Source of the DNA: Oceanotoga teriensis
Lineage (GTDB): Bacteria > Thermotogota > Thermotogae > Petrotogales > Petrotogaceae
Length of the DNA: 64,000 nucleotides
Direction of reading: 5' to 3'
NCBI RefSeq assembly: GCF_003148465.1
Contig: NZ_QGGI01000003.1
Span: forward strand, 1 to 64,000
Shown here piece by piece: positions 16,877 through 56,098 of this stretch. The notes under the pieces are model-generated. The model saw only the letters and a list, made by a program, of their open reading frames with translations, was not told the DNA's origin and did no database searches. The position numbers and the translations under genes are program-made. Positions within the stretch are counted from its first letter, which is position 1. Each line of letters starts with the position of its first letter.

Positions 16877-16918
16877 AAAAAAGATTCATATGATATATAT
16901 CATATGAATCTTTTTTTT
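16877..16918 (+). terminator. Terminator of the transporter operon
   Basis: A 14-bp perfect stem (16881-16894 with 16899-16912), four-base loop, and eight T. Confidence 0.93.
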
Positions 16919-16951: not shown

Positions 16952-17482
16952 ATGGATATTAGAGAACTTGAAATAAAAAATGTTTATCAAATAAAAAATA
17001 AATTATATGAAGATAAAAGGGGATATTTTTCAGAAATATATAGAAAAAATGATTATGAATTTTTGAAAACTAATTTTGTTCAAGAAAATTATTCTTTTTC
17101 AAATAAATATACTTTGAGAGGAATGCATTATCAAATAAAAAAACCGCAAGCAAAATTAATAAGATGTTTAAATGGTCAAATAATAGATGTTATATTAGAT
17201 CTCAGAAAAAATTCAGAAACTTATTTAAAAGCTTTATCTATAAAATTAGATAAAAATTATACATTATACATTCCAAAAGGAATAGCACATGGATTTTTAA
17301 CTCTTAAAGATGAAACTATTGTATATTATAAAACTGATGAATATTTTAATTCTAATGATGAAGATGGATTTATATGGAAAGATCCAAAAATATTTGAATA
17401 TTGGAATTTAAAAGAATTTAATATAAAAGAAGAACAATTGATATTGAGTCATAAAGATAAACATTGGGGATACTTAAGATGA
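16952..17482 (+). CDS. rfbC: dTDP-4-dehydrorhamnose 3,5-epimerase
   Basis: A 176-residue RmlC-type cupin that epimerises C3 and C5 of dTDP-4-keto-6-deoxyglucose. Typical motifs are GYFSEIYRKNDY, FVQENYSFS, TLRGMHYQ (the catalytic His region) and GIAHGFLTL. It is the first gene of a four-gene operon rfbC-rfbD-earP-efp. TATAAT at 16923-16928 is 24 bases before the ATG and may be its -10, though the -35 would fall in the preceding terminator. Its substrate must come from RfbA/RfbB, encoded at 32.2-34.2 kb. Confidence 0.96.
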   Translation: MDIRELEIKNVYQIKNKLYEDKRGYFSEIYRKNDYEFLKTNFVQENYSFSNKYTLRGMHYQIKKPQAKLIRCLNGQIIDVILDLRKNSETYLKALSIKLDKNYTLYIPKGIAHGFLTLKDETIVYYKTDEYFNSNDEDGFIWKDPKIFEYWNLKEFNIKEEQLILSHKDKHWGYLR

Positions 17483-18309
17483 AAATTCTTTTAACTGGAT
17501 CTGATGGGCAACTTGGAAAAGAATTTTCAAAAATTAAACTTATAAACTATAAAACAAATAAAAAAGATTTTGATATAACAAATTATTATCAAATGAAAGA
17601 ATTTATAGAAAAAAATAAAATCACACATATATTGAATACTGCGGCATATACAGATGTTGAAAATGCAGAAATAAAAAAACAATATACTTTAGAAGTTAAT
17701 AATCCAGAAAATTTGATTGAAATATGTAAAGAATATAATATAAAATTAATTCATTTTTCTACAGACTATGTTTTTAACGGTAAAAAAATAAATTATACTG
17801 AAAAAGATGAAACTAATCCAATAAATTATTATGGCTATAGTAAACTATTGGGAGAAAAAAACATACAAAGAAAATTAAAAAATTATCTAATATTGAGAAC
17901 TTCATGGTTATATGGAGAAAAAGAGAATAATTTTATAAAAAAAATAATAAAAAATACTGAAAATAATGAAATTATAAAAGGTACCATAGATGAGATATCA
18001 TCTCCGACTAATGTTAAAGACTTATTGATTCCAACTTTAAAACTTTTAGAAAAAGATAGTGTAGGTATATATCATATATCTGGAGATGGAATATGTTCAA
18101 GATATTTATGGATAAAATATATATTGAAATACTTACAAAGAAATAATAAATTAGAAAGAGTTTATCAAAAAGATTTCAAATTGATAGCTAAAAGGCCTAT
18201 TATATCAGTTCTTTCAAATGAAAAGATAAAAAATGAATTAAATATAAAAATAAATCATTGGAAATATTCTACTTTTGAATATATAAACTTTTTAAAAACA
18301 AATTCATAA
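17479..18309 (+). CDS. rfbD: dTDP-4-dehydrorhamnose reductase
   Basis: A 276-residue RmlD of the short-chain dehydrogenase family that makes dTDP-L-rhamnose with NAD(P)H. It shows the Rossmann start ILLTGSDGQLGKEF, NTAAYTDVENAE, STDYVFNG, and the catalytic YYGYSKLLGE (Tyr-x-x-x-Lys). I take ATG 17479, which overlaps the rfbC stop as ATGA, rather than the in-frame TTG at 17464. Translation of rfbC and rfbD is therefore probably coupled. The product feeds the EarP enzyme encoded next. Confidence 0.95.
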   Translation: MKILLTGSDGQLGKEFSKIKLINYKTNKKDFDITNYYQMKEFIEKNKITHILNTAAYTDVENAEIKKQYTLEVNNPENLIEICKEYNIKLIHFSTDYVFNGKKINYTEKDETNPINYYGYSKLLGEKNIQRKLKNYLILRTSWLYGEKENNFIKKIIKNTENNEIIKGTIDEISSPTNVKDLLIPTLKLLEKDSVGIYHISGDGICSRYLWIKYILKYLQRNNKLERVYQKDFKLIAKRPIISVLSNEKIKNELNIKINHWKYSTFEYINFLKTNS

Positions 18310-18349
18310 TAAATTAGAATAAAAATGATATATTATAATGGTGATAAAA

Positions 18350-19285
18350 ATGATAGATATATTCGTTACGGTAATAGACAATTATGGTGATGCTGGATAT
18401 ACTATAAGATTAGCTTCTGCACTTCAAAAAACATATCAACAAAAAGTAAGAGTAATAACGGATTATAAAAAAATATTTTATGATATAAACGATGAAATAG
18501 ACTTTGAAATTTTAGAAATTAAAGATATAACAAATTATAGAAGTTCAGAAAAAATAGTATTTATGTTTCAGTATTTCCCAAATGAAGATTATATAAAAAT
18601 AATAAATAAATATTCAAAAATATGTGTAACTATTGATTATTTTACTCCAGAGAAGTGGGCAATTAATTCAAATAACACGATGTCATATCATCATGGTTTG
18701 AACATAAAAAATACTTTTCTTGTTCCAGGTTTATACAAAGAAACTGCGGGTATATTAAACTATAGTTTCTTTACTTCAAAAATAAAAGGGTATCATAATG
18801 TTTATATGTATACCCCAGAAAAAGTCAATTTTTTAAATGATCCCATAACCCTTTGGGGGAAAAAAATAAAAAAAGAAAATATAAAAAATATGGATATATC
18901 TCCTCAAAGAATATTTGATAATTATATTTATGGTGCTAAATATAATTGGATAAGAGGAGAAGACTCTCTTCAACTTGCTTTGAATTCTGGAATACCATTT
19001 TTTTGGGAAGCTTATAAACAAAAAAATCAAATACATCATTTAAAAGTTGAAGCTTTTTTACACTTTATTAAAAGTTTTTTTGAAGAAGAATATCTTTATA
19101 ATTCTTATTCTTTAATGATAAAGTATTTAAATGATTATAAAATAAAACAAAGTATAATTCAAGAATATAAAAATATAGATAAAAATTACAATTCTTTACA
19201 AAAAACATTTAAGAAATTAAAAAATTATTTTCAAATAACATCAAGTCTTCAAGAAAATTTAATACAAAAACTTGAGATAATATAG
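18350..19285 (+). CDS. earP: EF-P arginine rhamnosyltransferase EarP
   Basis: A 311-residue GT-B-type protein matching the EarP family (formerly DUF2331), which transfers L-rhamnose from dTDP-L-rhamnose to Arg32 of EF-P. The N-terminus IDIFVTVIDNYGDAGYTIRLA gives the two conserved Asp residues (Asp10, Asp14) known to be needed in Pseudomonas EarP. The C-terminal signature YNWIRGEDSLQLAL followed by GIPFFW and the IHHLKVEAF helix also matches. It is somewhat shorter than proteobacterial EarP (about 370). It lies directly between rfbD and efp, which supports the role. The start is taken at ATG 18350 (MIDIF); an ATG at 18338 is in frame but has no ribosome site. TATAAT at 18334-18339 is probably incidental. 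Confidence 0.92.
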   Translation: MIDIFVTVIDNYGDAGYTIRLASALQKTYQQKVRVITDYKKIFYDINDEIDFEILEIKDITNYRSSEKIVFMFQYFPNEDYIKIINKYSKICVTIDYFTPEKWAINSNNTMSYHHGLNIKNTFLVPGLYKETAGILNYSFFTSKIKGYHNVYMYTPEKVNFLNDPITLWGKKIKKENIKNMDISPQRIFDNYIYGAKYNWIRGEDSLQLALNSGIPFFWEAYKQKNQIHHLKVEAFLHFIKSFFEEEYLYNSYSLMIKYLNDYKIKQSIIQEYKNIDKNYNSLQKTFKKLKNYFQITSSLQENLIQKLEII

Positions 19286-19325
19286 TAAAATAATCTTGAA
19301 AATATTAAGAAATGGAGTGATATAA

Positions 19326-19883
19326 GTGATTTTTGCATCAGAATTAAAACCAGGATATGTTATAAAATACAATGGACAGCTTCATACTATACAAAAGTAT
19401 AAATATAACTGGTCTGGAAGAAATGAAGCTACAGTTACATTAAAAATGAAAAATATTGAAAATGGTTCAACTGTAGACACATCCATGAAAGGTGGAGAAA
19501 AGTTAGAAGATGTAGTTTTAGACCAAAGAGAAATGAATTATATATATAAAAATGGAGATTATTATGCACTTATGGATAATGAAACATATGAACAAATAGA
19601 AGTTCATATAGATGATCTTGGAGATATAGTAAACTTTCTTGCAGAAGAAGGAACAGTTTTTGTATCTTTCTATGAAGAAAGACCTGTATCTTTTTCATTG
19701 CCTAAAAATGTTACACTGATTGTTGAATATACAGAACCAGGTGAAAAAGGTGATTCAACAGGAAATCCTTTAAAGCCTGCAAAATTGAATACAGGTGCAG
19801 AGGTTAATGTTCCATTGTTTGTTAACATAGGAGACAAAATAGTAATAGATACATCAAATGGTGAATATTTATCGAGGGCATAA
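19326..19883 (+). CDS. efp: Elongation factor P (rhamnosylated-type, Arg32)
   Basis: A 185-residue EF-P that relieves ribosome stalling at proline runs. The modification loop reads YNWSGRNEAT with Arg at position 32, exactly where the Pseudomonas/Neisseria type carries its rhamnosylated Arg; EF-Ps modified on lysine by EpmA have Lys here. The rest (KGGEKLEDVVLDQREMNYIY, PGEKGDSTGNPLKPA) is canonical. The start is GTG 19326 behind GGAGTGA. As the last gene after rfbC, rfbD and earP, enzyme, sugar donor pathway and target are made from one transcript, which ends at a strong terminator. Confidence 0.97.
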   Translation: MIFASELKPGYVIKYNGQLHTIQKYKYNWSGRNEATVTLKMKNIENGSTVDTSMKGGEKLEDVVLDQREMNYIYKNGDYYALMDNETYEQIEVHIDDLGDIVNFLAEEGTVFVSFYEERPVSFSLPKNVTLIVEYTEPGEKGDSTGNPLKPAKLNTGAEVNVPLFVNIGDKIVIDTSNGEYLSRA

Positions 19884-19901: not shown

Positions 19902-19943
19902 TTTTTGCTGTACTTCAACATCTTTGAAGTGCAGCTTTTTTAA
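19902..19943 (+). terminator. Terminator of the rfbC-rfbD-earP-efp operon
   Basis: A 12-bp stem with one U-G pair (19907-19918 with 19924-19935) followed by six T. Confidence 0.9.
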
Positions 19944-24290: not shown

Positions 24291-25736
24291 ATGTATGAAA
24301 ATATTATAGAAATGATAGAAAACGCTCAATATAAAGATGCTTTAACCGAAATAGAGAAGATAAATAATTCAAAGTGGGAGAAGTATAATTTAAAGGGTAT
24401 AATTCTCTTCCAAACTGAAAATATAGAGCTTGCAATTCGTTTTTTTAAAAAAGCATTATCTATAGAAAAAAATAATGATATTTATTATAATTTAGCTCTC
24501 TGTTATTATAAAAAAAGTATGTTTAAAATATCATGGAATATTTTAATGAACTTAAATAATAAGGATGAAAAAATTTTTTATCTACTTTCTTATATTGAAT
24601 TTGAACAAAGAGATTTTACACAATTAAAAAAGATAGATTATTATTCAAGTGCTAAATTTAAAATCAATGATTTAAATAAAAAGGTTAAATACTTACATTT
24701 TATGATTGATAGCCCTATTTCAAAAAAATATATTGAATTTATAAATGAGAATTTTACAAAGGAAGATCATAAATTTATTATTATTAGTAATGATGTTTTT
24801 ACTGATGATTATTATGTCATTAATAATATTGAATCTATAAGATTATTAGCGACAAACTATGAAAAAATACTTCTACATGGAATTTTTAATTATGAAGTTA
24901 TGTATTATTTATTTTTAAATGAAGAAAAAATTGATTTTAAAAAAGTATATTGGTTTATTTGGGGTGGTGATTTATATTATTATAAATTTAGAAAAAATAA
25001 TTTTAATTCTGATTTATTTGAATTTGTTAGAAAAAAAATTCTAAAAAAAATTGTTAATATTATTACTGTAACCTCTGAGTATGACTTTGAATTAGCAAAA
25101 AAATGGTATAAAATTAATGCAAAAAAATATTTATTATTATATCCTAATTTAATAGATTATAAATTCCTTAAACGATTAAAAAATAAAAAAAGATCATCTT
25201 GTAACCTTAGAATACAATTAGGGAATTCGGGTGATCCAAGTAACAAACATATAGAAATGTTGAATATTTTATCAAAATTCAAAAATGAAAATATTGAAAT
25301 AATAACGCCACTATCTTATGGAGGAAGTAAAAATTATATTGAAAAAGTAATTGAAACCGGAAAAGATATTTTTGGTAAAAAATTTAATTACTTAAAGAAT
25401 TTTTTACCCCCTCAAGAATATGGTAAGTTTTTAAGTTCAGTAGATTTAGCTATTTTTAATCACGACAGGCAACAAGCTTTTGGGAATATTTTATATTTAT
25501 TATTTCTTGGTAAAAAAGTTTTCTTAAAAAATGATACTACTTCTTGGAAAACTCTAAAAGAAAAAAATTTAATAGTTTGGAATACTTATGATATTTATCA
25601 AATGACATATAATGATTTAATAGAAATTAATGAAAGCGATAAAAATATTAATAGTGCTATTATTGAAGAAGAATATTCTTTTGAAACAAGATTTAAGTTA
25701 TGGAAAGATTTTTTTGATAACAAAAATAATTATTGA
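24291..25736 (+). CDS. TPR protein fused to a WecF-like (GT56) glycosyltransferase domain
   Basis: A 481-residue protein. The first 110 residues form TPR-like helices (LAIRFFKKALSIEKNNDIYYNLALCYYKKS). From about 125 it matches the WecF (Fuc4NAc transferase, GT56) family: HGIFNYEVMYYL, YWFIWGGDLYYY, and the strong signature QLGNSGDPSNKHIEML, then SSVDLAIFNHDRQQAFG. WecF transfers a dTDP-activated 4-amino-fucose derivative to a lipid-linked glycan, so a dTDP-amino-sugar donor is a fair prediction, fitting the pathway encoded downstream. TPR fusion is unusual for this family. It is the first gene of the sugar cluster; ribosome site TGGAGG. Confidence 0.83.
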   Translation: MYENIIEMIENAQYKDALTEIEKINNSKWEKYNLKGIILFQTENIELAIRFFKKALSIEKNNDIYYNLALCYYKKSMFKISWNILMNLNNKDEKIFYLLSYIEFEQRDFTQLKKIDYYSSAKFKINDLNKKVKYLHFMIDSPISKKYIEFINENFTKEDHKFIIISNDVFTDDYYVINNIESIRLLATNYEKILLHGIFNYEVMYYLFLNEEKIDFKKVYWFIWGGDLYYYKFRKNNFNSDLFEFVRKKILKKIVNIITVTSEYDFELAKKWYKINAKKYLLLYPNLIDYKFLKRLKNKKRSSCNLRIQLGNSGDPSNKHIEMLNILSKFKNENIEIITPLSYGGSKNYIEKVIETGKDIFGKKFNYLKNFLPPQEYGKFLSSVDLAIFNHDRQQAFGNILYLLFLGKKVFLKNDTTSWKTLKEKNLIVWNTYDIYQMTYNDLIEINESDKNINSAIIEEEYSFETRFKLWKDFFDNKNNY

Positions 25737-25753
25737 TAGAAAGGAAGTTAGAA

Positions 25754-27073
25754 ATGAGAATATTGATAATAGGCCAAACAACTTTACACTGGGGAAGAAT
25801 GGAATTTGGAAATATAGGTAATTATTACATCATAGAACCATTCATTAGAGAGCTTCATAAAACTTTTGAGAATTCTGAAATAAAAACAACACTACAAATG
25901 TCAAAAAGATTTTGTAAAGATGAGAAAGTTGAAAGTTTACCGATAGATCTATATTATGGCTTTAACAAAAGTAATAATTTAGAATTAGCAAAATATGAAT
26001 TAACTTTGGTAGAGGATTATTTAAAGAATGGAAAATTTCAAGAAATAACACCATACATAAAAGAAGTTTTAGAATCTGACATAGTCATAGATTTTAGTGG
26101 CGATATTTGGGGAGATAACGCCAATTTTTTGGGAAAAGATAGATTTGAAGTCGGTTTATATAAGGATTTAATAGCTCAAAAATTAAAGCCTACTTATATG
26201 ATAGCTGGTTCTCCTGGTCCATTTAAGGATATCAAAACTAAAGATTTAGCAAAAAAAGTATATGAAGGATTTGACTTAGTAACAAATAGAGAACCTATAA
26301 GTTCAGATATAATTAAAAGAGAAGGTTTTAATACTAATAATACAAGTGATTTAGCTTGTCCAGCATTTTTATTTGAACCAATAAATATAGAAAAAGCTAA
26401 AGAAAAAGAAGAAGTAAAAAACATATTTGATAAATCAAAATTAAATATAGGTTTTGTAATTTGTGGCTGGAATTTTGAACAAGGACCTTTTGACAAATGG
26501 CCAAGAGATGATAAAGATTATATAACATTTGCTAAATCAATTGAACATATAGCTAATAAATATGATGTAAATATAATTTTGATGTCACATTCTAATGGAT
26601 TTCCTATTCCACCTAAAAAATTTAAATTACAGCATGGAAGAGATTATCCTATTATAAAACAATTAGAAAAAATACTTAAAGATAGAGGCACAGCTAAAAA
26701 TATTCAAACTATTGATGGAGTATATGATGCTTGGACAACTAAGGGAATTATTGGTAATTTAGATTTAATGATAAGTGGAAGAGTACATGCTGCAGTTGCA
26801 GCTTTATCACAAAAAATACCAACAGTTATAATAGATTATGGGCATGAACCAAAAGCCCATAAATTAAAAGGTTTCGCTAAAGTGTGTGAAATGGAAAACT
26901 ATGTAGCTGATCCAAGCAAAGAAAATGATTTGATACAAAAAATTGAAAAGCTATTAGATAATAAAGATAAAATAAATCAACATCTTAATTTTAAGATAGA
27001 AGAAGTTAAACAAATGGCGAAAAACAATTTTTATGAAATAAAAGAACATTTAAAAAGAATTGGAGTTTTATAA
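25754..27073 (+). CDS. Polysaccharide pyruvyl transferase family protein
   Basis: A 439-residue protein of the polysaccharide pyruvyl transferase (CsaB/WcaK-like) family. Typical features are the N-terminal FGNIGNYYI, VIDFSGDIWGDN, the central SDLACPAFLF, and the C-terminal ISGRVHAAVAALS with IDYGHEPKAHKLKGF. Family members add pyruvate ketals from PEP to glycan sugars, or in some branches act as glycosyltransferases. I choose ATG 25754 behind GAAAGGAAG; a TTG at 25733 overlapping the previous stop is in frame but less likely. It is followed without gap by the WbqC-like gene. Confidence 0.85.
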   Translation: MRILIIGQTTLHWGRMEFGNIGNYYIIEPFIRELHKTFENSEIKTTLQMSKRFCKDEKVESLPIDLYYGFNKSNNLELAKYELTLVEDYLKNGKFQEITPYIKEVLESDIVIDFSGDIWGDNANFLGKDRFEVGLYKDLIAQKLKPTYMIAGSPGPFKDIKTKDLAKKVYEGFDLVTNREPISSDIIKREGFNTNNTSDLACPAFLFEPINIEKAKEKEEVKNIFDKSKLNIGFVICGWNFEQGPFDKWPRDDKDYITFAKSIEHIANKYDVNIILMSHSNGFPIPPKKFKLQHGRDYPIIKQLEKILKDRGTAKNIQTIDGVYDAWTTKGIIGNLDLMISGRVHAAVAALSQKIPTVIIDYGHEPKAHKLKGFAKVCEMENYVADPSKENDLIQKIEKLLDNKDKINQHLNFKIEEVKQMAKNNFYEIKEHLKRIGVL

Positions 27074-27775
27074 ATGAAGATAGGAATTATGCAACCATAT
27101 TTTTTACCATATATTGGATATTGGCAATTAATGAATAAAGTAGATAGGTTTGTTGTATATGACAATATTCAATATACTAAAAGAGGCTGGATAAGAAGAA
27201 ATAGAATATTGATGAACAATACAGATAAAATGATAACCCTACCCATAAAAAAAGATTCTGATTTTTTAGATATAAAAGAAAGATTCTTATCTGAGAGATA
27301 TGAAAATGAAAAAAGTAAAATTAAAAATCAGGTAAAAGAAGCATATAAAAAAGCTCCTTATTATAAAAAAATAGAACCATTATTAATTAAAATACTTGAT
27401 TTTGAAGATAAAAATTTATTTAATTATTTATTAAATTCATTACGTATTATCAAAGAATATCTAGGGATAAAAACAGAAATAATAATCTCTTCTGAAATAG
27501 AAATGAACCATAATTTAAAAGCTGAAGAGAGAGTTATTGAAACATGTAAAAAAATGGAAGCTGATCATTATATAAACCCTATAGGTGGAACAGAACTATA
27601 TAATAAAGAAGATTTTAAAAAAGAAGAGATAAAATTAAATTTTATAAAAACAAATGATATAAAGTATAAACAATTCAACAATGAATTTATTCCAAATCTA
27701 TCTATAATAGATGTAATGATGTTTAATTCAAAAGAGGAAATAAAAGATATGCTAGAAAAATATACTTTAGAATAG
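27074..27775 (+). CDS. WbqC-like family protein
   Basis: A 233-residue WbqC-like protein, recognised from MKIGIMQPYFLPYIGYWQLM and YDNIQYTKRGWIRRNRI at the start and the C-terminal HYINPIGG...LSIIDVMMFNS region. Genes of this family occur in O-antigen and sugar-modification clusters; the biochemical role is unknown, though acyl transfer has been suggested from context. It begins at the base after the preceding stop codon, so it is in an operon. Confidence 0.9.
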   Translation: MKIGIMQPYFLPYIGYWQLMNKVDRFVVYDNIQYTKRGWIRRNRILMNNTDKMITLPIKKDSDFLDIKERFLSERYENEKSKIKNQVKEAYKKAPYYKKIEPLLIKILDFEDKNLFNYLLNSLRIIKEYLGIKTEIIISSEIEMNHNLKAEERVIETCKKMEADHYINPIGGTELYNKEDFKKEEIKLNFIKTNDIKYKQFNNEFIPNLSIIDVMMFNSKEEIKDMLEKYTLE

Positions 27776-27791
27776 AAATGGGGACTATATT

Positions 27792-28436
27792 ATGAATTAT
27801 TGTTTTTATGTTTCTGGCAAGGCTAGTAGGCTTTATAAAATAATTAAATACGCAAATAAAAATTTTATAAAAAAAATAAAATTTGTTTACTCTGATAGTA
27901 AAGATAATAGATATTTAAAAGAAATCTTAGAAGATAAGAGTATTTTATATATTTTAAAAGACTTTTATGAATTAGAAAAACCAGACAGAAACTTAAAAAA
28001 TTCTGATAATTTACTCAGGCTGATGAAAAAAAATAAAATAGATTATTGTTTTTCTTTCGGAGATCACATATTAAAAGGAAAAATTTTAAAAGAGTATAAA
28101 AATAAAATAATAAATTTTCATCCTTCTATTTTGCCAAATTATCCTGGAAGAAACGCCATTGATAAAGCTATAAATGATAATGCTTCTATTTTAGGAAATA
28201 CTGCTCATTTTATAGATGAAGGAATTGATACAGGGCCTATCATTTTGCAAAGTGTTATTTCGTCAGAAGCTTTTTATAAAAATGGTTATGATTTTATTTT
28301 AGATTTACAAATAGAGATGTTATTTAATCTTGATAAATTATTGGAAAATAAAAAGATAAAAGTAGAAGGGAATAAAGTGAAAATAATAAATGCTGATATT
28401 ACAAAATATTTTATTTTGCCAGATATTAAGGACTGA
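27792..28436 (+). CDS. Sugar N-formyltransferase
   Basis: A 214-residue member of the formyltransferase (GART/Fmt) fold. The catalytic triad is visible: Asn and His in INFHPSILPNYPG and Asp in HFIDEGIDTGPII. It is shorter than Fmt or ArnA-type enzymes and lacks their C-terminal OB domain. In a deoxysugar cluster such enzymes use N10-formyl-tetrahydrofolate to formylate the amino group of a dTDP- or GDP-amino sugar. The substrate is inferred to be the product of the aminotransferase at 31130-32230. Confidence 0.86.
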   Translation: MNYCFYVSGKASRLYKIIKYANKNFIKKIKFVYSDSKDNRYLKEILEDKSILYILKDFYELEKPDRNLKNSDNLLRLMKKNKIDYCFSFGDHILKGKILKEYKNKIINFHPSILPNYPGRNAIDKAINDNASILGNTAHFIDEGIDTGPIILQSVISSEAFYKNGYDFILDLQIEMLFNLDKLLENKKIKVEGNKVKIINADITKYFILPDIKD

Positions 28437-28440
28437 TTAA

Positions 28441-28569
28441 ATGAATAAAAAAATATTAGTTACAAAATCATCTATGCCCAATTTAGATGAATATGTAGAA
28501 GAAATAAAAGATTTATGGGATACTCATTGGTTAACCAATATGGAAATTAAACATGATTATTTAGAATAA
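28441..28569 (+). pseudogene. N-terminal remnant of a DegT-type aminotransferase
   Basis: ATG 28441 starts a 42-codon frame ending TAA 28567-28569. Its sequence parallels the start of the complete aminotransferase at 31130 (EEIKDLWDTHWLT against NEIKDLWDTRYLT). The remaining 300 residues are gone. The next 150 bases hold only short open pieces, one of 24 codons at 28643-28717, which I read as debris from one or more lost genes. Confidence 0.8.
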
Positions 28570-28723
28570 TTTATAAAAAGATTTAGTTGAATTAAGTAAA
28601 TTAATGAAATTTCACAAAAAATTAGAGTTATGAAGTTATTTGATGATTAACATATATTCTTATGATGACGAGGGTAATAAAGTTTATATAAAAGTTCAAT
28701 TAAATAAGGATGATTAAAAGACT

Positions 28724-30097
28724 ATGATTACTTTAAATGATTATATTAAATCTTTAAATACAGCGAAAACTTATAATAAAACCAAATATTTGTTAAAATG
28801 GATTAATGAAAAAAACAAAACTACTTATGTTGATATCAAAGAAATTAAACTTGAGGATAGTAACTATTGGTTTTATGATAAGAAAGAAGGAGCTATAAGA
28901 AATAAAAATAATAGTTTTTTTTCTATTAAAGGTATAGAAAAATACAAATTAGGTAAACTATTAGAATCTCATCCTATTATCATACAGGATGAAATAGGTT
29001 ATTTAGGTATAATTACTTCAAAAATAAATGGAGTTTTACATTTTTTAATGCAGGCAAAAATTGAACCTGGCAATATTAATAAAGTTCAAATTTCTCCAAC
29101 TATTCAAGCCACAAAAAGTAATTTTTTGCAAAAACATGGGGGTAAAAAACCAGCCTTTTTAGAATATTTTATAAACTCTGAAAAATATGAAATCATAGTA
29201 GACCAAATACAATCGGAACAATCATCGAGATTTTATAAAAAAAGAAACAGAAATGTAATATTATACATAAAAGATCATATAAAGGAATCTGAAAACTTTC
29301 GATGGTTTACATTAGGCCAAATTAAAAAGCTAATGAAATATGATAATTTAGTTAATATGGATACAAGGACAGTGCTTTCTTGTATACCTTATTCTACGTT
29401 AAAAAGAGAAAAATTTACAGAAGATATAAATAATAGTATTTTTTTAAATCAATTAAATCTAAAAATAAATCATGAAAAAATAAAAAAAATATATTATAGT
29501 TTAAACAACAAAAAAATGTTTAATAATTATAGTATAAGATTAACAGATCTTTATTCTTTAAATAACTGGAAAATGGAACATGGAAAATTTCAAGATATTG
29601 AAAATAAATATCCGTTTGAAGTTATTTTTGCAGATATAACAATACAAGGTAGAGAAGTTTATAATTGGACGCAACCACTTTTTAAAGCTAAAGGGAAAGC
29701 TACTTTTGGTTTGGTTTTTTTTGAAGAAGACGGAGTTATTCATTTTATTATAAAAGAAAAACCAGAAATTGGTTGTTTTGATTATGTTGAGTTAGGACCA
29801 ACAATACAAAAAGAATTTAATGATAATTTTGAAGATAATATTGAAAAATTATTTGAACAAAATTTAATTCGAAATTCTGGAATAATAGCAAAAGTATTAC
29901 TTTCAGAAGAAGGTGGAAGGTTTTATCAAGAACAAAATTTAAACATTATAATGAAAATAGACAAAAATGAATTAAATAAAATTTATCTTCCAAAAGAATA
30001 TCATATAATTGATTTTATTACTTTAAATAAAATGATACAAACTAATAATTTGATCAATATTCAATTAAGGAATCTCATATCTTTATTGGAGGGTTAA
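28724..30097 (+). CDS. NDP-hexose 2,3-dehydratase
   Basis: A 457-residue NDP-hexose 2,3-dehydratase (SpnO/EvaA-like). The family's internal duplication is visible: LMQAKIEPGN...VQISPTIQATKSN with SRFYKKRN in the first half, and EIGCFDYVELGPTIQ with GRFYQEQN in the second. The enzyme removes the C2 hydroxyl of dTDP-4-keto-6-deoxyglucose, the committed step to 2,6-dideoxysugars. These enzymes are best known from actinobacterial antibiotic pathways. The adjacent ketoreductase gene starts two bases after the stop, as expected since the product is unstable and needs immediate reduction. Confidence 0.9.
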   Translation: MITLNDYIKSLNTAKTYNKTKYLLKWINEKNKTTYVDIKEIKLEDSNYWFYDKKEGAIRNKNNSFFSIKGIEKYKLGKLLESHPIIIQDEIGYLGIITSKINGVLHFLMQAKIEPGNINKVQISPTIQATKSNFLQKHGGKKPAFLEYFINSEKYEIIVDQIQSEQSSRFYKKRNRNVILYIKDHIKESENFRWFTLGQIKKLMKYDNLVNMDTRTVLSCIPYSTLKREKFTEDINNSIFLNQLNLKINHEKIKKIYYSLNNKKMFNNYSIRLTDLYSLNNWKMEHGKFQDIENKYPFEVIFADITIQGREVYNWTQPLFKAKGKATFGLVFFEEDGVIHFIIKEKPEIGCFDYVELGPTIQKEFNDNFEDNIEKLFEQNLIRNSGIIAKVLLSEEGGRFYQEQNLNIIMKIDKNELNKIYLPKEYHIIDFITLNKMIQTNNLINIQLRNLISLLEG

Positions 30098-30099
30098 GT

Positions 30100-31140
30100 A
30101 TGAAAAAACTAAAAATGGGAATATTATCAACATCAAATATAAATCGAAGAAAGTTTTTGCCAGCTTTGAAAAAAAATAATTTTTTTGAATTTATAGGAAT
30201 AGCTGTAGCCAACGAAAAAGAGAGAAATGTTTTACTTAAAGATGTTAATTTAAACGAAAACATAAAAAAATCTTTAGAAACAGCTAAAGAAATAGTTGAT
30301 GAGTATGGAGGTAATATTTATAATAGTTTTGAAAAAATAATTAATTCGAAAAAAATAGAAGCAATATATGTTCCTTTACCGCCTGCTTTACATTATTATT
30401 GGGCAAAGAAAATATTAGAAAAAAATAAACATGTTTTTTTAGAAAAACCTTCAACTATAAATTATAAAGATACTTTAAATTTAATAGATTTAGCTTTAGA
30501 AAAAAATCTATCTATACATGAAAACTATGCTTTTGTTTATCATAAGCAATTATTTATAATTAAGTCATTAATAAAAGAAAATACCATAGGAGATATAAGA
30601 AAAATAACTACAAATTTTGCGTTTCCATTTAGAGGTAAAAATGATTTTAGGTATAAAAGAGTATTAGGTGGTGGAGCTTTATTAGATTGTGGTGGATATC
30701 CTATAAAAGTATCTTCAGAAATATTAGGAGAGGATGTTGAAATTGTTTCTTCTGTTTTAAATAAAAAAGATTTTGAAGTAGATTTATTTGGAAATGTCTT
30801 ATTAAAGAACAAAAATAATATTGTTTCTAGCATTTCTTTTGGAATGGATAACTCTTATAAATGTGAGTTGGAAATTTGGGGAAGTGAAGGAACTATTTAT
30901 ACTGATAGAATTTTTACTGCTCCAGAAAATTATAATCCAAAAATTTATATAAAAAATAATAAACAAAATAAAACAATAACAGTGGAAGAAGAAGATCAAT
31001 TTTCAAATTCAATAGATTTTTTTTATAATACAATCATTAATAAAAGTATAAGAGAAGAAAATTTTAAAAAAATAATAATTCAAAGTAAATTAATTGAACA
31101 AGCATTTGATAAAAACAAGGGAGATATATATGAAAGATAA
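30100..31140 (+). CDS. Gfo/Idh/MocA oxidoreductase, probable NDP-hexose 3-ketoreductase
   Basis: A 346-residue NAD(P)-dependent oxidoreductase. It has an N-terminal Rossmann fold beginning KMGILSTSNINRRKFLPAL, the EKP motif (HVFLEKPST, about 110), and the C-terminal Gfo/Idh domain with GGGALLDCGGYPI. Next to a 2,3-dehydratase, the close relatives are 3-ketoreductases (SpnN/TylC1/KijD10 type) giving dTDP-4-keto-2,6-dideoxyglucose. The role is inferred from family plus position. The following aminotransferase start overlaps its last 11 bases. Confidence 0.88.
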   Translation: MKKLKMGILSTSNINRRKFLPALKKNNFFEFIGIAVANEKERNVLLKDVNLNENIKKSLETAKEIVDEYGGNIYNSFEKIINSKKIEAIYVPLPPALHYYWAKKILEKNKHVFLEKPSTINYKDTLNLIDLALEKNLSIHENYAFVYHKQLFIIKSLIKENTIGDIRKITTNFAFPFRGKNDFRYKRVLGGGALLDCGGYPIKVSSEILGEDVEIVSSVLNKKDFEVDLFGNVLLKNKNNIVSSISFGMDNSYKCELEIWGSEGTIYTDRIFTAPENYNPKIYIKNNKQNKTITVEEEDQFSNSIDFFYNTIINKSIREENFKKIIIQSKLIEQAFDKNKGDIYER

Positions 31141-32230
31141 AATAATACCATTAGTAAAACCTTCTATGCCTCCATATAGTGAATATATAAATGAAATAAA
31201 AGATTTATGGGATACTAGATATTTAACTCATACAGGTCCCAAGCATAATCGGTTAGAAAAAGCATTAAGCAATTATTTGAACGTTGATAAAATTGCTCTT
31301 TTTACAAACGGGCATTTAGCCTTAGAACTTTCAATTTTAGCTCTTGAAGTAAAAGGAGAAGTTATAACTACTCCTTTTACTTTTATTTCTACAACCCATG
31401 CTATTGTAAGAAATGGATTGGATCCTGTTTTTTGTGATATAAAAAAAGATGATTATACAATAGATGCTTCTAAAATTGAAGAGCTAGTAACAGAGAAAAC
31501 CTCTGCAATTCTTCCTGTTCATGTATATGGGAATATTTGTGATTATAAGGAAATAGAAAGAATAGCAAAAAAATATAATTTAAAAGTAATATATGATGCA
31601 GCACATGCATTTGGAGAAACGGTAGATGGAATAAATGTATCTAATCTTGGAGACGCTTCTATGTTTAGTTTTCATGCCACAAAAGTGTTTCATACAGTTG
31701 AAGGTGGTGGAGTTACTTTTAAAGATGATAACCTTTATAACAAATTTGGAAGTTTAAGACAATTTGGGATGAATCAAAAACATGAAATTATTGATATAGG
31801 AACAAATGCAAAAATGACCGAAATTCATGCTGCTATGGGATTATGCAATATGAAACATATTGACGATGAAATTAAAAAAAGAAAAAAAGTAGTAGAAAGA
31901 TATAGAGAAAGGCTTTCAGATATTAAAGGAATAAAATTAAATGAAGAAAAAGAAAATATAAAAAATAATTATGCCTATTTCCCAGTTTTATTTGATGGAT
32001 ACAAGGCAAATAGAGATGAAGTTTTTGAAGAATTAAAGAAAAGCAACATTATGGCAAGAAAATATTTTTTTCCGTTGACAAATAATATAGAATGTTATAA
32101 GGACAGATTTGATGTAAATAAAACACCTATTGCAAAATATGTGGCAGATAGAATATTGACTTTGCCATTATATGCTGATTTAGAATTATCAGACGTAGAT
32201 AGAATATGTGATATTATAATAAATATTTAA
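31130..32230 (+). CDS. DegT/DnrJ/EryC1 sugar aminotransferase
   Basis: A 366-residue PLP-dependent aminotransferase. The PLP lysine lies in SMFSFHATKVFHTVEGGG, and other motifs are TTPFTFISTTHAIVRNG, YDAAHAFGE and GTNAKMTEIHAAMGLCN. I start at ATG 31130 (ribosome site AAGGGAGAT), overlapping the previous gene by 11 bases; an upstream in-frame start at 31094 would add 12 residues with no support. After 2,3-dehydration and C3 reduction the remaining ketone is at C4, so C4 amination is the simplest prediction; C3 amination cannot be excluded. It probably makes the substrate for the formyltransferase. Confidence 0.9.
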   Translation: MKDKIIPLVKPSMPPYSEYINEIKDLWDTRYLTHTGPKHNRLEKALSNYLNVDKIALFTNGHLALELSILALEVKGEVITTPFTFISTTHAIVRNGLDPVFCDIKKDDYTIDASKIEELVTEKTSAILPVHVYGNICDYKEIERIAKKYNLKVIYDAAHAFGETVDGINVSNLGDASMFSFHATKVFHTVEGGGVTFKDDNLYNKFGSLRQFGMNQKHEIIDIGTNAKMTEIHAAMGLCNMKHIDDEIKKRKKVVERYRERLSDIKGIKLNEEKENIKNNYAYFPVLFDGYKANRDEVFEELKKSNIMARKYFFPLTNNIECYKDRFDVNKTPIAKYVADRILTLPLYADLELSDVDRICDIIINI

Positions 32231-32243
32231 ATGAGGTGATAAT

Positions 32244-33116
32244 GTGAAAGGTATTATCTTAGCAGGGGGAAGTGGAACGCGACTATATCCAATTACAAAA
32301 GGAATAAGTAAGCAATTATTGCCAATATACGATAAACCTATGATATATTATCCTTTATCAGTATTGATGTTATCAGGAATAAAAGAAGTTTTAATAATTT
32401 CAAATCCAGAATATATTGATTTATATAAAAATTTATTTGAAAAAGGATCTAAATTAGGAATGAAAATAGAGTATAAAATACAGAAAAATCCAAGAGGGCT
32501 TGCAGATGCATTTATTGTAGGTGAAGATTTTATAGGAAATGATGATGTCGCTTTAATATTGGGAGACAATATTTTCTATGGTCAAGATTTTGTACCAAAA
32601 TTAAAAAAAGCTGCTGACTTTGAAAAAGGTGCTACAATTTTTGGTTATTATGTTAATAATCCTAAATCATTTGGAGTAGTTGAATTTGATGAAAATAATA
32701 AAGCGATTAGTTTAGAAGAAAAACCTGAAAAACCAAAATCAAAATATGCAATACCAGGTTTATATTATTATGATAATTCTGTTGTAGAAAAAGCAAAAAA
32801 TCTTAAACCCTCAGATAGAGGAGAGTTAGAAATAACAGATTTGAATAGAATATATTTAGAAGAAAATGAATTGAATGTAGAGGTTTTGGGAAGAGGAGTT
32901 GCTTGGTTAGACACCGGAACATATGATGGCCTTGCTAATGCATCAGAATTTGTTAGAACAATACAAAAAAGAACAGGGTTATATATTTCTTGTCTTGAAG
33001 AAATTGCATATAGAAATAAATGGGTAAGCAAAGAGCAATTGATTGAAATTGGAAAAGAATATGAAAAAACAGAATATGGTAAATATATCTTAGATATAGC
33101 AGGTGATATAAAATGA
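32244..33116 (+). CDS. rfbA: Glucose-1-phosphate thymidylyltransferase
   Basis: A 290-residue RmlA making dTDP-glucose from glucose-1-phosphate and dTTP. Seen are the nucleotidyl loop [19 protein letters not shown], then [22 protein letters not shown], and AWLDTGTYD. The length fits RmlA. The start is GTG 32244 after GAGGTGATAAT. It overlaps rfbB by four bases. Glucose-1-phosphate would come from the phosphoglucomutase at 41710-43395. Confidence 0.96.
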
Positions 33117-34153
33117 CACTATTAGTAACAGGGGTAGCAGGATTCATAGGAAGCAACTTTGTATACTATTACCTAAGAAAACATATAGATAGAAAAATAA
33201 TCGGATTAGATAGTCTAACATATGCAGGAAACATAGACAATCTATCTAAACTTACAGAAGAAGAAAAAAGTAGATTTAGCTTTATAAAAGGCGATATTAC
33301 TGATCAAAAAACAGTACAAAAAATATATGAAGATTATGAAATAGATGGAATAATAAATTTTGCAGCAGAATCTCATGTAGATAGATCTATACATGATCCT
33401 CAAATATTTTTAAAAACAAATATATTGGGAACACAAAATTTATTAGATATATTTAAGAAAAATTATAAAGAAGGAAATAAATATTTACAAGTATCAACAG
33501 ATGAGGTATATGGTGCCCTTGGTTCAACAGGATTTTTTACAGAAAAAACACCTTTAGATCCACATAGTCCATATTCAGCAAGTAAAACGAGTGCAGATCT
33601 TATAGTAAAAGCATATCATGATACCTATGGAATAAATGTAAATATAACGAGATGTTCAAATAATTACGGACCATATCAATTTCCCGAAAAATTAATACCA
33701 TTAATAATAAATAATGCTTTAAATCATAAAGAATTACCGATATACGGCGATGGCAAGCAGATAAGAGATTGGTTATATGTAGAAGATCATTGTCAAGCAA
33801 TAGATATGGTATATGATAAGGGTAAAAAAGGCGAAGTATATAATATAGGCGGACATAATGAAAAAGAAAATATAGAAATAGTAAAGACTATAATAAATTA
33901 TCTTCAAGAAAAAACAGGAGATAAAAAAATAAATGAAGATTTAATAAAATATGTAAAAGATAGACTTGGACATGATAGAAGATATGGAATAGATCCAACT
34001 AAAATAAAAGAAGAGCTTAATTGGGAACCAACTATTATGTTTGAACAAGGAATAAAAATGACTATAGATTGGTATTTGAATAATAAAGAGTGGATGGAAT
34101 CTGTTATAAGTGGCGAGTATTTAGATTTTTATGAGAAAAATTATATTGATTAG
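33113..34153 (+). CDS. rfbB: dTDP-glucose 4,6-dehydratase
   Basis: A 346-residue RmlB of the extended SDR family. It has the NAD-binding [11 protein letters not shown], catalytic [10 protein letters not shown] (Thr-Asp-Glu) and [10 protein letters not shown] (Tyr-x-x-x-Lys), and [15 protein letters not shown]. It converts dTDP-glucose to dTDP-4-keto-6-deoxyglucose, the branch point both for the 2,3-dehydratase route here and for RfbC/RfbD at 17 kb. It starts as ATGA over the rfbA stop and is the last gene of the sugar operon. No clear terminator follows; 34154-34379 contains only AT-rich sequence without features I can name. Confidence 0.96.
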
Positions 34154-34379
34154 AGGGATATTATGGATTAAAAAAATTCTATTAAAGGTATTTGAATCTA
34201 ATTTTATTGCTTTTATTGGTGGGGATAATCAAATATTTTTTTCAACGTTTTTATACCTCTCATAAATAATATCTTGTATGAAGTTAAGAATTAAAGTAAA
34301 TAATCAATATTGAAGGTATTAAGAATTTTTTACATTAATGTTCTGAAGTCTTTAAAATTTTAGAACTTAGAGGGTTTGG

Positions 34380-35488
34380 ATGAGGTCAATGTATGTATCT
34401 GATGTTGGTGATGGTTTGTGTATGGCTATAGACACATTTTTTGGGAAAACAATTCAAATTGACTGTGGTAGTAAACAAGGCAGTGAAGTTGCATTAAGAG
34501 GTCTTATGAATCTTTACAATCGTTTTTATAACCCTGATGTTTTTATGCTTTTTCACTTTCATAAGGATCATTACAATGGTCTTATGTTTGCTTCTTCCAA
34601 AAGTTCTTTTTCTTATACGTGGGGAATAAAGGAAGTCTATTATCCCAAAATTCCTAATTTTCCAAAAAAAGATAAATTTATGACCTGTTTATTTACAATG
34701 AACCTTAGACTCTTTGGGAACGAAACAGGTATTATGGAATATGATTTTTTGAAAGCGATATCAAGAATAAACAGAGGAAGACCTTTTAAATACAAGCCTT
34801 TCTCTAAAGGGGATGTAATAAATATAGATGAAACATCATTTGAGGTTTTATGGCCACCAATGGAAATTGATGGAAAAGAAACGAAGGCTGAAGGGATGTA
34901 ATAAATGATTTTAATAAAGCAATGGAAATGGAAGAGGATAAAAAACTAAAAGAACTATATGAACGTGTAAAATCAGAAGGCCTATTTAGGAAATATTTTG
35001 AAGAAAGCCAACGAAAATTTACAGAAGAAAGAGACCATTCTAAAAATGTCAATGAACTAGTAAAAAAAGAATATGAAAAGAAAAAATTACCAGACATTTT
35101 CAAGAGAGCAAATGATTCTCTTAAGAAAGTAGCAAATCATTTAAGTCTTACTTTATTAGGTGATGGTGGGTTATTGTTTTTAGGAGATCTGGAGCACCAA
35201 GAAATAAAAAAAGTAATAGGTGATTTGATAGCAGCAGGTAAAAAGAAGTTTTATACGTTGATAATCCCACATCATGGTACACATTGGGATAATAGTTTAA
35301 AAGATATTAAATGTATTTATTCCATAACTTCTAACGGCAGAAGATTATGTTTTTATATAAAGCCAGGATTTAAGAGTATATCGAAAAAGTCTTTTGCAAT
35401 TCATGTTGATGGTGATATAGCAATTCCTCAATTTCTGCCTAAAAAAATTAATAGATTTTATCCAAGGTGGTTTTATGATGAATATTGA
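34380..35488 (+). pseudogene. Metallo-beta-lactamase-fold hydrolase gene with frameshift
   Basis: Two frames together make one MBL-fold protein of about 370 residues related to the ComEC/Rec2 metal-dependent hydrolase domain. The first (34380-34901) has SDVGDGLCMAIDT, IDCGS and the metal motif HFHKDHYNG. The second (open from 34892 to 35488) has LLGDGGLLFLGDLE and the metal ligand region IIPHHGTHWDNS. The frames meet at GGG 34893-34895, where loss of one base explains the break. Genes of this kind often sit in defence or competence contexts. It could be a pseudogene, a sequencing error or, less likely, programmed frameshifting. Confidence 0.8.
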
Positions 35489-35575
35489 TGTTTTTTGCTT
35501 AACTATGGATTAACAGCGTACTTAGTTTTCCAGACTATCTTTATTAGAATTAAATAATTTTATTCATGAAAAATC

Positions 35576-35602
35576 TAAAGTAAATAATAAAAAGAACGAT
35601 AA
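35576..35602 (+). promoter_or_regulatory. Sigma-28 (FliA/SigD) promoter of the flagellin operon
   Basis: TAAA (35576-35579), 15 bases, AACGATAA (35595-35602) matches the sigma-28 form TAAA-N15-GCCGATAA. It is about 77 bases before the first flagellin start. The fliD promoter has the same layout. Confidence 0.85.
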
Positions 35603-35639
35603 TACTATGAAGTTCTCTGGCCGGAGATAAAAAATATTA

Positions 35640-35674
35640 GCCCATGGAAGGGCATAAAAAAAACATGGAGGTGG
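35640..35674 (+). promoter_or_regulatory. Candidate CsrA-binding leader of flagellin 1
   Basis: A hairpin GCCC-ATGGAA-GGGC (35640-35653) presents GGA in its loop. A second ATGGA (35665-35669) overlaps the ribosome site GGAGGTGG. Two ANGGA sites, one in a loop and one over the Shine-Dalgarno, is the layout by which CsrA represses hag in Bacillus. Confidence 0.6.
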
Positions 35675-35678
35675 AATT

Positions 35679-36494
35679 ATGAGAATAAATCATAATTTAA
35701 ATGCATTAAACGCATGGAGAAACTTAGGAAATGCAAATTCAGGAATGGGAAAATCATTAGAAAAATTGAGTTCAGGATTAAGAATTAACAGAGCTGGAGA
35801 CGATGCTGCAGGATTGGCTATATCAGAAAAGATGAGAGCACAGATAAAAGGATATGATATGGCAACAAAGAATGCACAAGATGGAATATCATTGATACAG
35901 ACAGCAGAAGGAGCGTTAACAGAGGTACATTCAATGCTTCAAAGAATGAGAGAAATATCAGTACAGGCTGCAAATGATACAAACAACACAGAAGATAGAA
36001 GTGCATTGGCAAAAGAAATAGCTCAATTACAAAAAGAAATAAACAGAATAGGATCAACAACTAAATTTAATGGTAGTTCATTATTTGCTGCAAATAAATC
36101 ATTCAATTTACAGATAGGTCCAGATAAATCATCAGACCTCGTTTTAAATGTAAAATCTCAAGCTGTTACAACAGCTACTCTTACAATAAGTGCTATTTCA
36201 ATAACTTCTAATACAGCTGCACAAAATGCTATAGCAAGTATAGAAAATGCAATAAAAGTTGTTTCAAGTTTAAGAGCACAATTTGGAGCATATCAGAACA
36301 GATTGGAACATACAGTAAATAACTTAAGTGTAGCAAGTGAAAACTTAACAGCAGCAGAATCAAGAATTAGAGATGTTGATATGGCGAAAGAAATGATGAG
36401 TTTCACAAGAGAACAGATATTATTACAATCATCAAATGCTATGTTGGCACAATCAAATCAATTACCACAAAATGTATTATCATTGTTGAGATAA
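35679..36494 (+). CDS. fliC: Flagellin (first copy)
   Basis: A 271-residue flagellin. Conserved D0/D1 N-terminus [17 protein letters not shown] and [20 protein letters not shown], and C-terminus [20 protein letters not shown]...[10 protein letters not shown], with only a short variable middle (about 155-194). The small size means D2/D3 are nearly absent. It is secreted by the flagellar type III system and polymerises into the filament. A sigma-28 promoter and a structured leader precede it. The second copy follows 58 bases after its stop. Ser/Thr residues in the exposed middle are possible sites for glycosylation by the nearby enzymes, which is inference. Confidence 0.97.
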
Positions 36495-36505
36495 AAAATA
36501 TAGCT

Positions 36506-36547
36506 GACCCAAGGAAGGGTTAAATAATAATTAATTACATGGAGGTG
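36506..36547 (+). promoter_or_regulatory. Candidate CsrA-binding leader of flagellin 2
   Basis: A hairpin of the stem GACCC with GGGTT (36506-36521) and loop AAGGAA, then ATGGA overlapping GGAGGTGG before ATG 36553. It has the same architecture as the first leader but different stem bases, so pairing is kept while sequence changed. No promoter is seen between the two genes. Confidence 0.6.
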
Positions 36548-36552
36548 GAATT

Positions 36553-37368
36553 ATGAGAATAAATCATAATTTAAATGCATTAAACGCATGGAGAAATTTA
36601 GGAAATGCAAATTCAGGAATGGGAAAATCATTAGAAAAATTGAGTTCAGGATTAAGAATTAACAGAGCTGGAGACGATGCTGCAGGATTAGCTATATCAG
36701 AAAAAATGAGAGCACAGATAAAAGGATATGATATGGCAACAAAGAATGCACAAGATGGAATATCATTGATACAGACAGCAGAAGGAGCATTAACAGAGGT
36801 ACATTCAATGCTTCAAAGAATGAGAGAAATATCAGTACAGGCTGCAAATGATACAAACAACACAGAAGATAGAAGTGCATTGGCAAAAGAAATAACTCAA
36901 TTACAAAAAGAAATAGATAGAATAGGATCAACAACTAAATTCAATGGTAGTTCATTATTTGCTGCAAATAAATCATTTAGTTTACAGATAGGACCGGATA
37001 AATCATCAAATCTTGTTTTAAATGTAAAATCTCAAGCTGTTTCTTCCACTGTTTTAACTATAAATGGTTTAGATATATCTTCAAATGCAAATGCACAAAC
37101 GTCTATTTCAAAGATAGATGGTGCTATAAAAGCAGTTTCAAGTTTAAGAGCACAGTTTGGAGCATATCAGAACAGATTGGAACATACAGTAAATAACTTA
37201 AGTGTAGCAAGTGAAAACTTAACAGCAGCAGAATCAAGAATTAGAGATGTTGATATGGCGAAAGAAATGATGAGTTTCACAAGAGAACAGATATTATTAC
37301 AATCATCAAATGCTATGTTGGCACAATCAAATCAATTACCACAAAATGTATTATCATTATTGAGATAA
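36553..37368 (+). CDS. fliC: Flagellin (second copy)
   Basis: A 271-residue flagellin almost identical to the first. Residues 1-114 and 195-271 are the same; single changes occur at 115, 122, 143 and 153; the block 164-194 differs strongly. It has its own ribosome site (GGAGGTGG) and leader hairpin but no visible promoter, so it is likely transcribed with the first copy and ends at a strong terminator. Identity at the ends with divergence in the exposed middle suggests gene conversion plus diversification of the surface loop. Confidence 0.97.
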   Translation: MRINHNLNALNAWRNLGNANSGMGKSLEKLSSGLRINRAGDDAAGLAISEKMRAQIKGYDMATKNAQDGISLIQTAEGALTEVHSMLQRMREISVQAANDTNNTEDRSALAKEITQLQKEIDRIGSTTKFNGSSLFAANKSFSLQIGPDKSSNLVLNVKSQAVSSTVLTINGLDISSNANAQTSISKIDGAIKAVSSLRAQFGAYQNRLEHTVNNLSVASENLTAAESRIRDVDMAKEMMSFTREQILLQSSNAMLAQSNQLPQNVLSLLR

Positions 37369-37383
37369 TTATTAAAATATATT

Positions 37384-37411
37384 GGCAGGCTTTTTGCCTG
37401 CCTTTATTTTA
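37384..37411 (+). terminator. Terminator of the flagellin operon
   Basis: A 7-bp GC-rich stem (GGCAGGC 37384-37390 with GCCTGCC 37396-37402), five-T loop, then TTTATTTT. Confidence 0.88.
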
Positions 37412-37451
37412 TAAAATTAATTTTATTGTATAAAATAAGGGGAGGAATAAA

Positions 37452-49652: not shown

Positions 49653-49658
49653 AAATTG

Positions 49659-49676
49659 GGCACACGAAAGTGTGCC
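49659..49676. terminator. Hairpin with GAAA tetraloop between secA and prfB
   Basis: GGCACAC-GAAA-GTGTGCC, a stable 7-bp stem with GNRA loop, six bases after the secA stop. The T tract after it is poor on the plus strand, so it may be a weak terminator or mRNA end stabiliser. Confidence 0.55.
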
Positions 49677-49705
49677 ATTGTTATGCTAATTTTGGGAGGT
49701 AAAAA

Positions 49706-50815: not shown

Positions 50816-50830
50816 TGATTTTGGCTTAAT

Positions 50831-50859
50831 TTGACAAAAAGGTTAAGGTGGTGTATAAT
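50831..50859 (+). promoter_or_regulatory. Consensus promoter overlapping the rsmH start
   Basis: TTGACA (50831-50836), 17 bases, TATAAT (50854-50859): perfect consensus. The rsmH start codon TTG is at 50862, only two bases after the -10, and the ribosome site AAGGTGGTG lies in the spacer. A transcript from here would begin inside the coding sequence. Confidence 0.8.
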
Positions 50860-50861
50860 TA

Positions 50862-51752: not shown

Positions 51753-51780
51753 GCCTTTCACAAAAAGGGAGGCGAAAAGT

Positions 51781-52059: not shown

Positions 52060-52070
52060 TGGTGAAAAAT

Positions 52071-53762: not shown

Positions 53763-53766
53763 TTAT

Positions 53767-54741: not shown

Positions 54742-54765
54742 AGACTACTGAATTTTCAGTAGTCT
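54742..54765. terminator. Bidirectional terminator between holA and the histidine kinase
   Basis: An 11-bp stem (54742-54752 with 54755-54765). The minus-strand transcript continues into a good T tract (complement of AAAAATAAA), the plus strand into a weaker one. Confidence 0.8.
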
Positions 54766-54766
54766 A

Positions 54767-56002: not shown

Positions 56003-56068
56003 TTCAGTATTTCCCCCCAAAAATTAGAATTCTTTTTGCTTGTACAAAAAATTGTACTATTAATATAT

Positions 56069-56077
56069 ATTATACCA
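56069..56077 (-). promoter_or_regulatory. Extended -10 promoter of the histidine kinase gene
   Basis: On the minus strand TGG-TATAAT (complement of 56069-56077). The leader after it contains the inverted repeat GTACAA/TTGTAC, which could bind a regulator or fold as a small hairpin. Confidence 0.55.
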
Positions 56078-56098
56078 CTCTTTGCTTAAAAATTAAAA

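Follow-up and report, generated by a model that had tools for sequence, protein, structure and literature searches.

A compact EarP and its putative EF-P target encoded together with rmlC and rmlD in a member of the Petrotogaceae

In the arginine rhamnosylation systems of Pseudomonas, Shewanella and Neisseria, earP lies directly upstream of efp and the elongation factor carries Arg32 within an SGRN loop. The transferase, a GT104 enzyme (PF10093; PDB 5NV8, 5WXK, 6J7M), combines a GT-B fold with an Asp pair and an RGEDS motif, and the residues whose change kills or cripples the P. putida enzyme have been mapped (PMC5615199). The window analysed here, the first 64,000 nucleotides of contig NZ_QGGI01000003.1 from the Oceanotoga teriensis genome (Petrotogaceae, Thermotogota), holds an earP-efp pair of the same layout and with the same Arg32 context, but here rmlC and rmlD join the gene cluster, giving four genes placed head to tail on the forward strand at 16952-19883 (Table 1). 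The rml enzymes are those of the rmlABCD (rfb) operons of surface polysaccharides; in contrast to those operons, the set is split in the window, with A and B in one cluster and C and D accompanying earP-efp. No report on EarP or EF-P rhamnosylation in connection with Petrotoga or Thermotogae was found in the literature, and as far as the literature searched shows, the mechanism is known while its occurrence in this phylum and the way the genes are arranged are new. The case would extend EF-P arginine rhamnosylation to another phylum.

Table 1. Coordinates and supporting evidence of the features discussed in the window.
Feature	Position	Strand	Description	Evidence
rmlC	16952..17482	+	dTDP-4-dehydrorhamnose 3,5-epimerase, 176 aa	PF00908 179 bits; TIGR01221 167 > 155.75; PDB RmlC matches 2e-36
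rmlD	17479..18309	+	dTDP-4-dehydrorhamnose reductase, 276 aa	PF04321 232 bits; TIGR01214 229 > 224; PDB RmlD matches 3e-42
earP	18350..19285	+	predicted compact EF-P arginine rhamnosyltransferase, 311 aa, ATG start	PF10093 134 bits > 25; TIGR03837 125 bits < 347; AF2 model and Foldseek
efp	19326..19883	+	elongation factor P, GTG start, 185 aa	TIGR00038 214 > 186; PF01132/PF08207/PF09285
Upstream terminator-like hairpin	16877..16916	predicted on -	perfect 18-bp inverted repeat	T run on + strand too, A run before
Intrinsic terminator after efp	19907..19935	+	12-bp stem, 5-nt loop, T6 tail	fold z = -4.6
rmlA	32244..33116	+	glucose-1-phosphate thymidylyltransferase, first donor step, outside the operon	TIGR01207 465.7 > 360.65
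rmlB	33113..34153	+	dTDP-glucose 4,6-dehydratase, second donor step, outside the operon	TIGR01181 476.6 > 365.1
holA-histidine kinase junction	54742..54766 (within 53767-54767)		earP-efp missing, 25-nt hairpin alone	synteny with L013, L014

The open reading frames and the family assignments agree on four contiguous RmlC, RmlD, EarP and EF-P genes, as a sequence-only reading of this DNA had proposed. RmlC and RmlD both exceed their NCBI equivalog cut-offs narrowly and EF-P does so clearly. The start codon of rmlD overlaps the rmlC stop as ATGA at 17479-17482 (a gap of -4 nt), and 40 nt separate rmlD from earP and again earP from efp. The strong terminator noticed earlier downstream of efp was recovered, and a second hairpin was found upstream of rmlC, which on its sequence is a predicted terminator between the operon and the upstream SNF-type transporter gene. 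Given the shared strand, the overlap, the 40-nt gaps and the terminators on both flanks, rmlC-rmlD-earP-efp likely forms a single transcription unit. A chance arrangement is excluded by the homology scores together with the occurrence of earP in four further genomes of the family, which represent three other genera. The assembly is a draft of 45 contigs, so that contamination or misassembly could have placed foreign genes in a Thermotogota contig, but such an explanation is hardly credible in view of those further genomes, of the secA-prfB-rsmH-pbp-holA block common to relatives on the same contig, and of the operon composition, which is AT-rich like the window.

The identity of the transferase follows from several lines of evidence. 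The protein exceeds the gathering score of the Pfam EarP profile and falls below the cut-off of the NCBI TIGR03837 equivalog, which is a naming threshold and not a biochemical feature; three other Petrotogaceae EarPs tested against TIGR03837 also fall below it, at 121-141 bits. Since the fold, the active site and the partner are those of EarP, the shortfall of the Petrotogaceae proteins is read as divergence and shortness. The AlphaFold (AF2) model of the window protein (pLDDT 90.3, pTM 0.90) displays a predicted EarP fold, GT-B with both domains, and in a Foldseek search against the PDB its top 13 matches are all EarP (E-values 1e-21 to 1e-15, best 1.4e-21), with the best TM-score of 0.85 to 5WXK_A. 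The sequence-only reading had raised the possibility of a grouping with another GT-B family, and the fold search rules this out, as the first GT-B enzyme other than EarP appears only at an E-value of 8e-6. At the residue level, D13, D17, R271 and E273 of P. putida EarP (PMC5615199) align with D10, D14, R202 and E204, so that the catalytic D13, D17 and E273 and the phosphate-binding R271 are all kept, and Y193, Q255, D274, S275 and Y291 align with Y154, Q186, D205, S206 and Y222. The Asp10, Asp14 and RGEDS motif (Arg202-Gly-Glu204-Asp-Ser) pointed out earlier are thus present. Three of the residues studied in P. putida are altered, F191 to Tyr, F252 to Ile and R278 to Leu, and the aromatic base cage of F191, F252 and F258 becomes Y152, I183 and F189, two of the three being aromatic. 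With 16-19% identity to the Pseudomonas, Shewanella and Neisseria enzymes in structural alignments and about 60 residues fewer, the window transferase, judged by sequence and model, is a genuine, divergent and compact EarP, which would transfer rhamnose from dTDP-L-rhamnose onto Arg32 of EF-P and which offers itself for structural work.

The operon had been described as self-contained, which does not hold, since a flagellin-linked sugar island 12.4 kb further downstream carries rmlA and rmlB. Genome searches found one rmlC and one rmlD above cut-off, both in the operon, and a second rmlA, of the long type, on another contig. The operon therefore appears to encode the rhamnose-specific half of the donor pathway. 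The shared half would be supplied by the island, with the long-type RmlA as another possible source of the first step. The island (24291-39974) includes genes for a GT56-like protein, a pyruvyltransferase, WbqC, a formyltransferase, an NDP-hexose 2,3-dehydratase, a Gfo/Idh oxidoreductase, a DesI-like aminotransferase, RmlA and RmlB, followed after rmlB by two flagellin genes and an 840-aa GT2-containing protein, with the formyltransferase upstream of the cluster that runs from the 2,3-dehydratase to rmlB. Its content suggests an island for flagellin glycosylation, with a formylated amino deoxysugar as the product.

The proximity of RmlA and RmlB to enzymes that make another dTDP sugar counts against the rhamnosylation reading and invites two alternatives. 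First, the compact EarP might place a different dTDP-deoxysugar on Arg32, for instance the island amino sugar. RmlA and RmlB are shared with that amino-sugar route, F191Y and F252I alter the nucleotide cage and are accompanied by R278L, and in the published EarP the contacts are to the TDP moiety, with none to the rhamnose (PMC5615199), which makes specificity hard to infer from sequence. The conserved catalytic residues, the direct linkage of the rhamnose-specific rmlC and rmlD here and that of rmlC in the sister genus nevertheless make this very unlikely. Second, EarP might rhamnosylate EF-P while the linkage to rmlC-rmlD is incidental and dTDP-rhamnose serves mainly surface or flagellar glycans. 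Such a role would suit the position of RmlA and RmlB in a sugar island beside two flagellins and a GT2 protein, and most other earP loci are without linked rml genes; the island, however, encodes a 2,3-dehydratase/aminotransferase route of its own and lacks rmlC and rmlD, and the sole copies of these two genes in the genome are located in the EF-P operon. The relatives likewise speak against it, since rmlC and rmlD of the EarP-bearing ones are orphan genes off any glycan cluster, whereas EarP-less relatives have rmlA, B, C and D clustered. An incidental linkage is thus rather unlikely, though the more serious of the two alternatives.

Under the favoured reading, in which rhamnose is the sugar, RmlA and RmlB from the flagellin-linked island and then RmlC and RmlD from the operon would yield dTDP-L-rhamnose. 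EarP, which presumably shares its transcript with EF-P, would then modify Arg32, located at the tip of EF-P domain I, with L-rhamnose. The rhamnosylated EF-P would in turn rescue ribosomes stalled at polyproline. Taken together with the displacement of the native efp and the move from holA to the rml genes described below, this explanation is considered highly probable as a whole.

Of 103 Thermotogota genomes, 5 encode an EarP; all five are Petrotogaceae and they represent four genera. In the four further genomes (G038, G052, G053 and G054), which share the EarP and EF-P clade with the window and differ in the partner genes, earP adjoins efp in the three whose contigs extend far enough; in G054 the contig ends inside earP and no efp match was obtained. 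RmlD above cut-off occurs in all five EarP-bearing genomes and in 4 of the 16 without EarP, an association across 21 related genomes that is suggestive and not independent of descent. The rml genes of EarP-less relatives, where present, lie together in glycan-type clusters, and in the other EarP-bearing relatives rmlC and rmlD are found among unrelated genes, with the exception of rmlC in G038. In this genome of a sister genus the order is rmlC, an rmlB-like gene, earP and efp, with rmlD and rmlA elsewhere. The rmlB-like gene (L015 7732-8691) is divergent, scoring 279 bits against the RmlB cut-off of 365, and its product is 38% identical to the window RmlB. The earlier proposal of a single operon uniting donor genes, transferase and target in the lineage is thus only partly borne out. 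The source genome is the only EarP-bearing one with the rmlC-rmlD-earP-efp order; in G038 only rmlC and the rmlB-like gene are linked, and in two other genera (G052 and G053) no rml genes accompany the pair. A short-type rmlA in G052 (L229, about 2200-2974) is disrupted in its first half by frame changes, in-frame stops and a missing segment, with the adjacent rmlB intact; this counts against the rhamnosylation reading, although the window genome has a long-type RmlA and G052 a similar match.

Outside the Petrotogaceae, rmlA, rmlC and rmlD were absent near earP in 78 loci (48 of them with at least 4 kb on both sides) and in two Fusobacteria, and three RmlB-like matches at 24-25% identity seem to be sugar epimerases or dehydratases of other kinds, which rules out rml genes as a general neighbor of earP. 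The efp gene, by contrast, adjoins earP in 69 of the 78 loci and in both Fusobacteria. The fusobacterial pairs, on plasmid pILYOP01 of Ilyobacter polytropus and in Fusobacterium vincentii, resemble that of the window, and the Ilyobacter EF-P is, with 51.6% identity, the closest to the window EF-P outside the family among those compared; the fusobacterial EarPs are 24-28% identical to the window EarP and no rml gene lies within 8 kb of them. The source genome, with its sole rmlC and rmlD beside earP-efp, lets one test whether a nucleotide-sugar pathway is kept for one translation factor.

The EF-P itself fits an EarP partner. It is encoded by the only EF-P gene in the source genome, a whole-genome search finding no second one, and its loop reads NWSGR32NEA, an SGRN-like context for Arg32 with Ser and not Pro at position -2, in agreement with the earlier claim of Arg32 inside SGRN. 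All 73 EarP-linked EF-Ps in the first set of sequences used for a tree have Arg32, and the EarP-bearing Petrotogaceae with a readable efp share the loop KYNWSGRN. In 12 of those 73 sequences, all adjoining earP and probably from Succinivibrionaceae loci, KGGRG replaces SGRN as a variant acceptor loop. The native Thermotogota EF-P has the same fold and likewise Arg at position 32, but occurs in genomes without EarP, forms a separate clade and lacks SGRN; in the 16 EarP-less genomes of the family the loop is [NQ]KHF[MT]GRGSG. Because the native protein of EarP-less relatives has Arg there too, Arg32 by itself is not diagnostic of EarP dependence.

Of the family genomes with a match, none has more than one EF-P gene, and the EarP-type and native forms are mutually exclusive when the EarP-bearing genomes with a readable efp are compared with the 16 lacking EarP. 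In the EF-P tree, with ordinary EF-Ps as the outgroup, the Petrotogaceae EarP-linked proteins (100/99) join all other EarP-linked EF-Ps (100/100), whereas the native Thermotogota EF-P forms one separate 100/100 clade across the families sampled. Forcing both Thermotogota groups into one clade costs 28.6 log-likelihood units, with a borderline AU p of 0.050. A vertically inherited Thermotogota EF-P in the window is disfavored by the tree and the loop. The EarP tree, called for in the sequence-only reading to tell an old clade from a recent transfer, yields one Petrotogaceae clade (100/100) on a long branch, in which the window sequence stands next to that of G038 (84/75). The RpoB tree pairs the same two genomes (97/96), and a single RpoB clade of all EarP-bearing genomes is neither supported nor rejected (AU p = 0.37); the RmlC tree gave no resolution on a shared origin of the two rmlC genes. 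With a single supported clade confined to one family, the Petrotogaceae EarP is an old acquisition of that family and not a phylum-wide trait.

One might instead suppose that earP and efp date back to the ancestor of Thermotogota and that every other family lost or replaced them. This alternative draws on the position of Petrotogaceae as the deepest branch among EarP-type EF-Ps, but it is very unlikely given the restriction of EarP to that single family and the unity of the native EF-P clade. As EarP-bearing genomes carry the EarP-type EF-P and their EarP-less relatives the native one, most likely the two genes arrived together: an earP-efp pair from outside Thermotogota would have displaced the native efp in an ancestor inside the Petrotogaceae. 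It would stand as a clear example of a core translation factor being exchanged along with the enzyme that modifies it. Sequence, structure and phylogeny all lend good support to the presence of EarP/EF-P arginine rhamnosylation genes in a Thermotogota.

A site that may mark the former location is seen elsewhere in the window. The block at 47175-57841 has the order secA-prfB-rsmH-pbp-holA, followed by a histidine kinase gene and YgiQ; prfB and the penicillin-binding protein gene are named from Pfam matches, and holA, rsmH, secA and YgiQ are what we take these genes to be from their sequences. In G052 and G053, earP-efp is located between holA and the histidine kinase gene, and in G054 earP also follows holA. 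The corresponding site in the window is vacant and lies about 35 kb from earP-efp. As two separate EarP-bearing lineages have the holA position, the simplest history would place the pair behind holA at first; later, on the branch leading to the window and its sister genus, it would have moved and become joined to rmlC, giving rmlC-rmlD-earP-efp in the window after a shift of about 35 kb.

The distribution of EarP also bears on where the system arose, for which a betaproteobacterial origin has been presumed (cited in PMC5615199, PMC6544042). In the EF-P tree a mainly proteobacterial clade (100/99) emerges only after the EarP-type proteins of Petrotogaceae, Ilyobacter, Margulisbacteria, UBP11, Fusobacterium and a Spirochaetales MAG have split off, and grouping the non-proteobacterial sequences as one clade is rejected (p = 0.016). 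The branching would argue against the presumed origin, subject to the caveats of long branches and thin sampling. We suggest, with considerable reservation, that rmlC and rmlD are kept mainly for EF-P and that the Arg-type EF-P and EarP arose outside Proteobacteria, in anaerobic groups like the Petrotogaceae, Fusobacteria and Margulisbacteria, with Proteobacteria acquiring them later. Four EarPs from MAGs titled Bacillota, Verrucomicrobia and Planctomyces (L118, L075, L112 and L085) fall inside proteobacterial clades, and represent either mis-binned contigs or recent transfers. Two EF-P-encoding records filed as plasmids, 2.1 and 2.9 Mb in size (L205, NZ_CP084075.1, and L211, NZ_CP030101.1), look like mislabelled chromosomes. 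In the window itself, an Rfam match to the antisense RNA HPnc0260 at 5778-5932, barely above threshold, overlaps one of two tandem tRNA-Met genes and is probably spurious.
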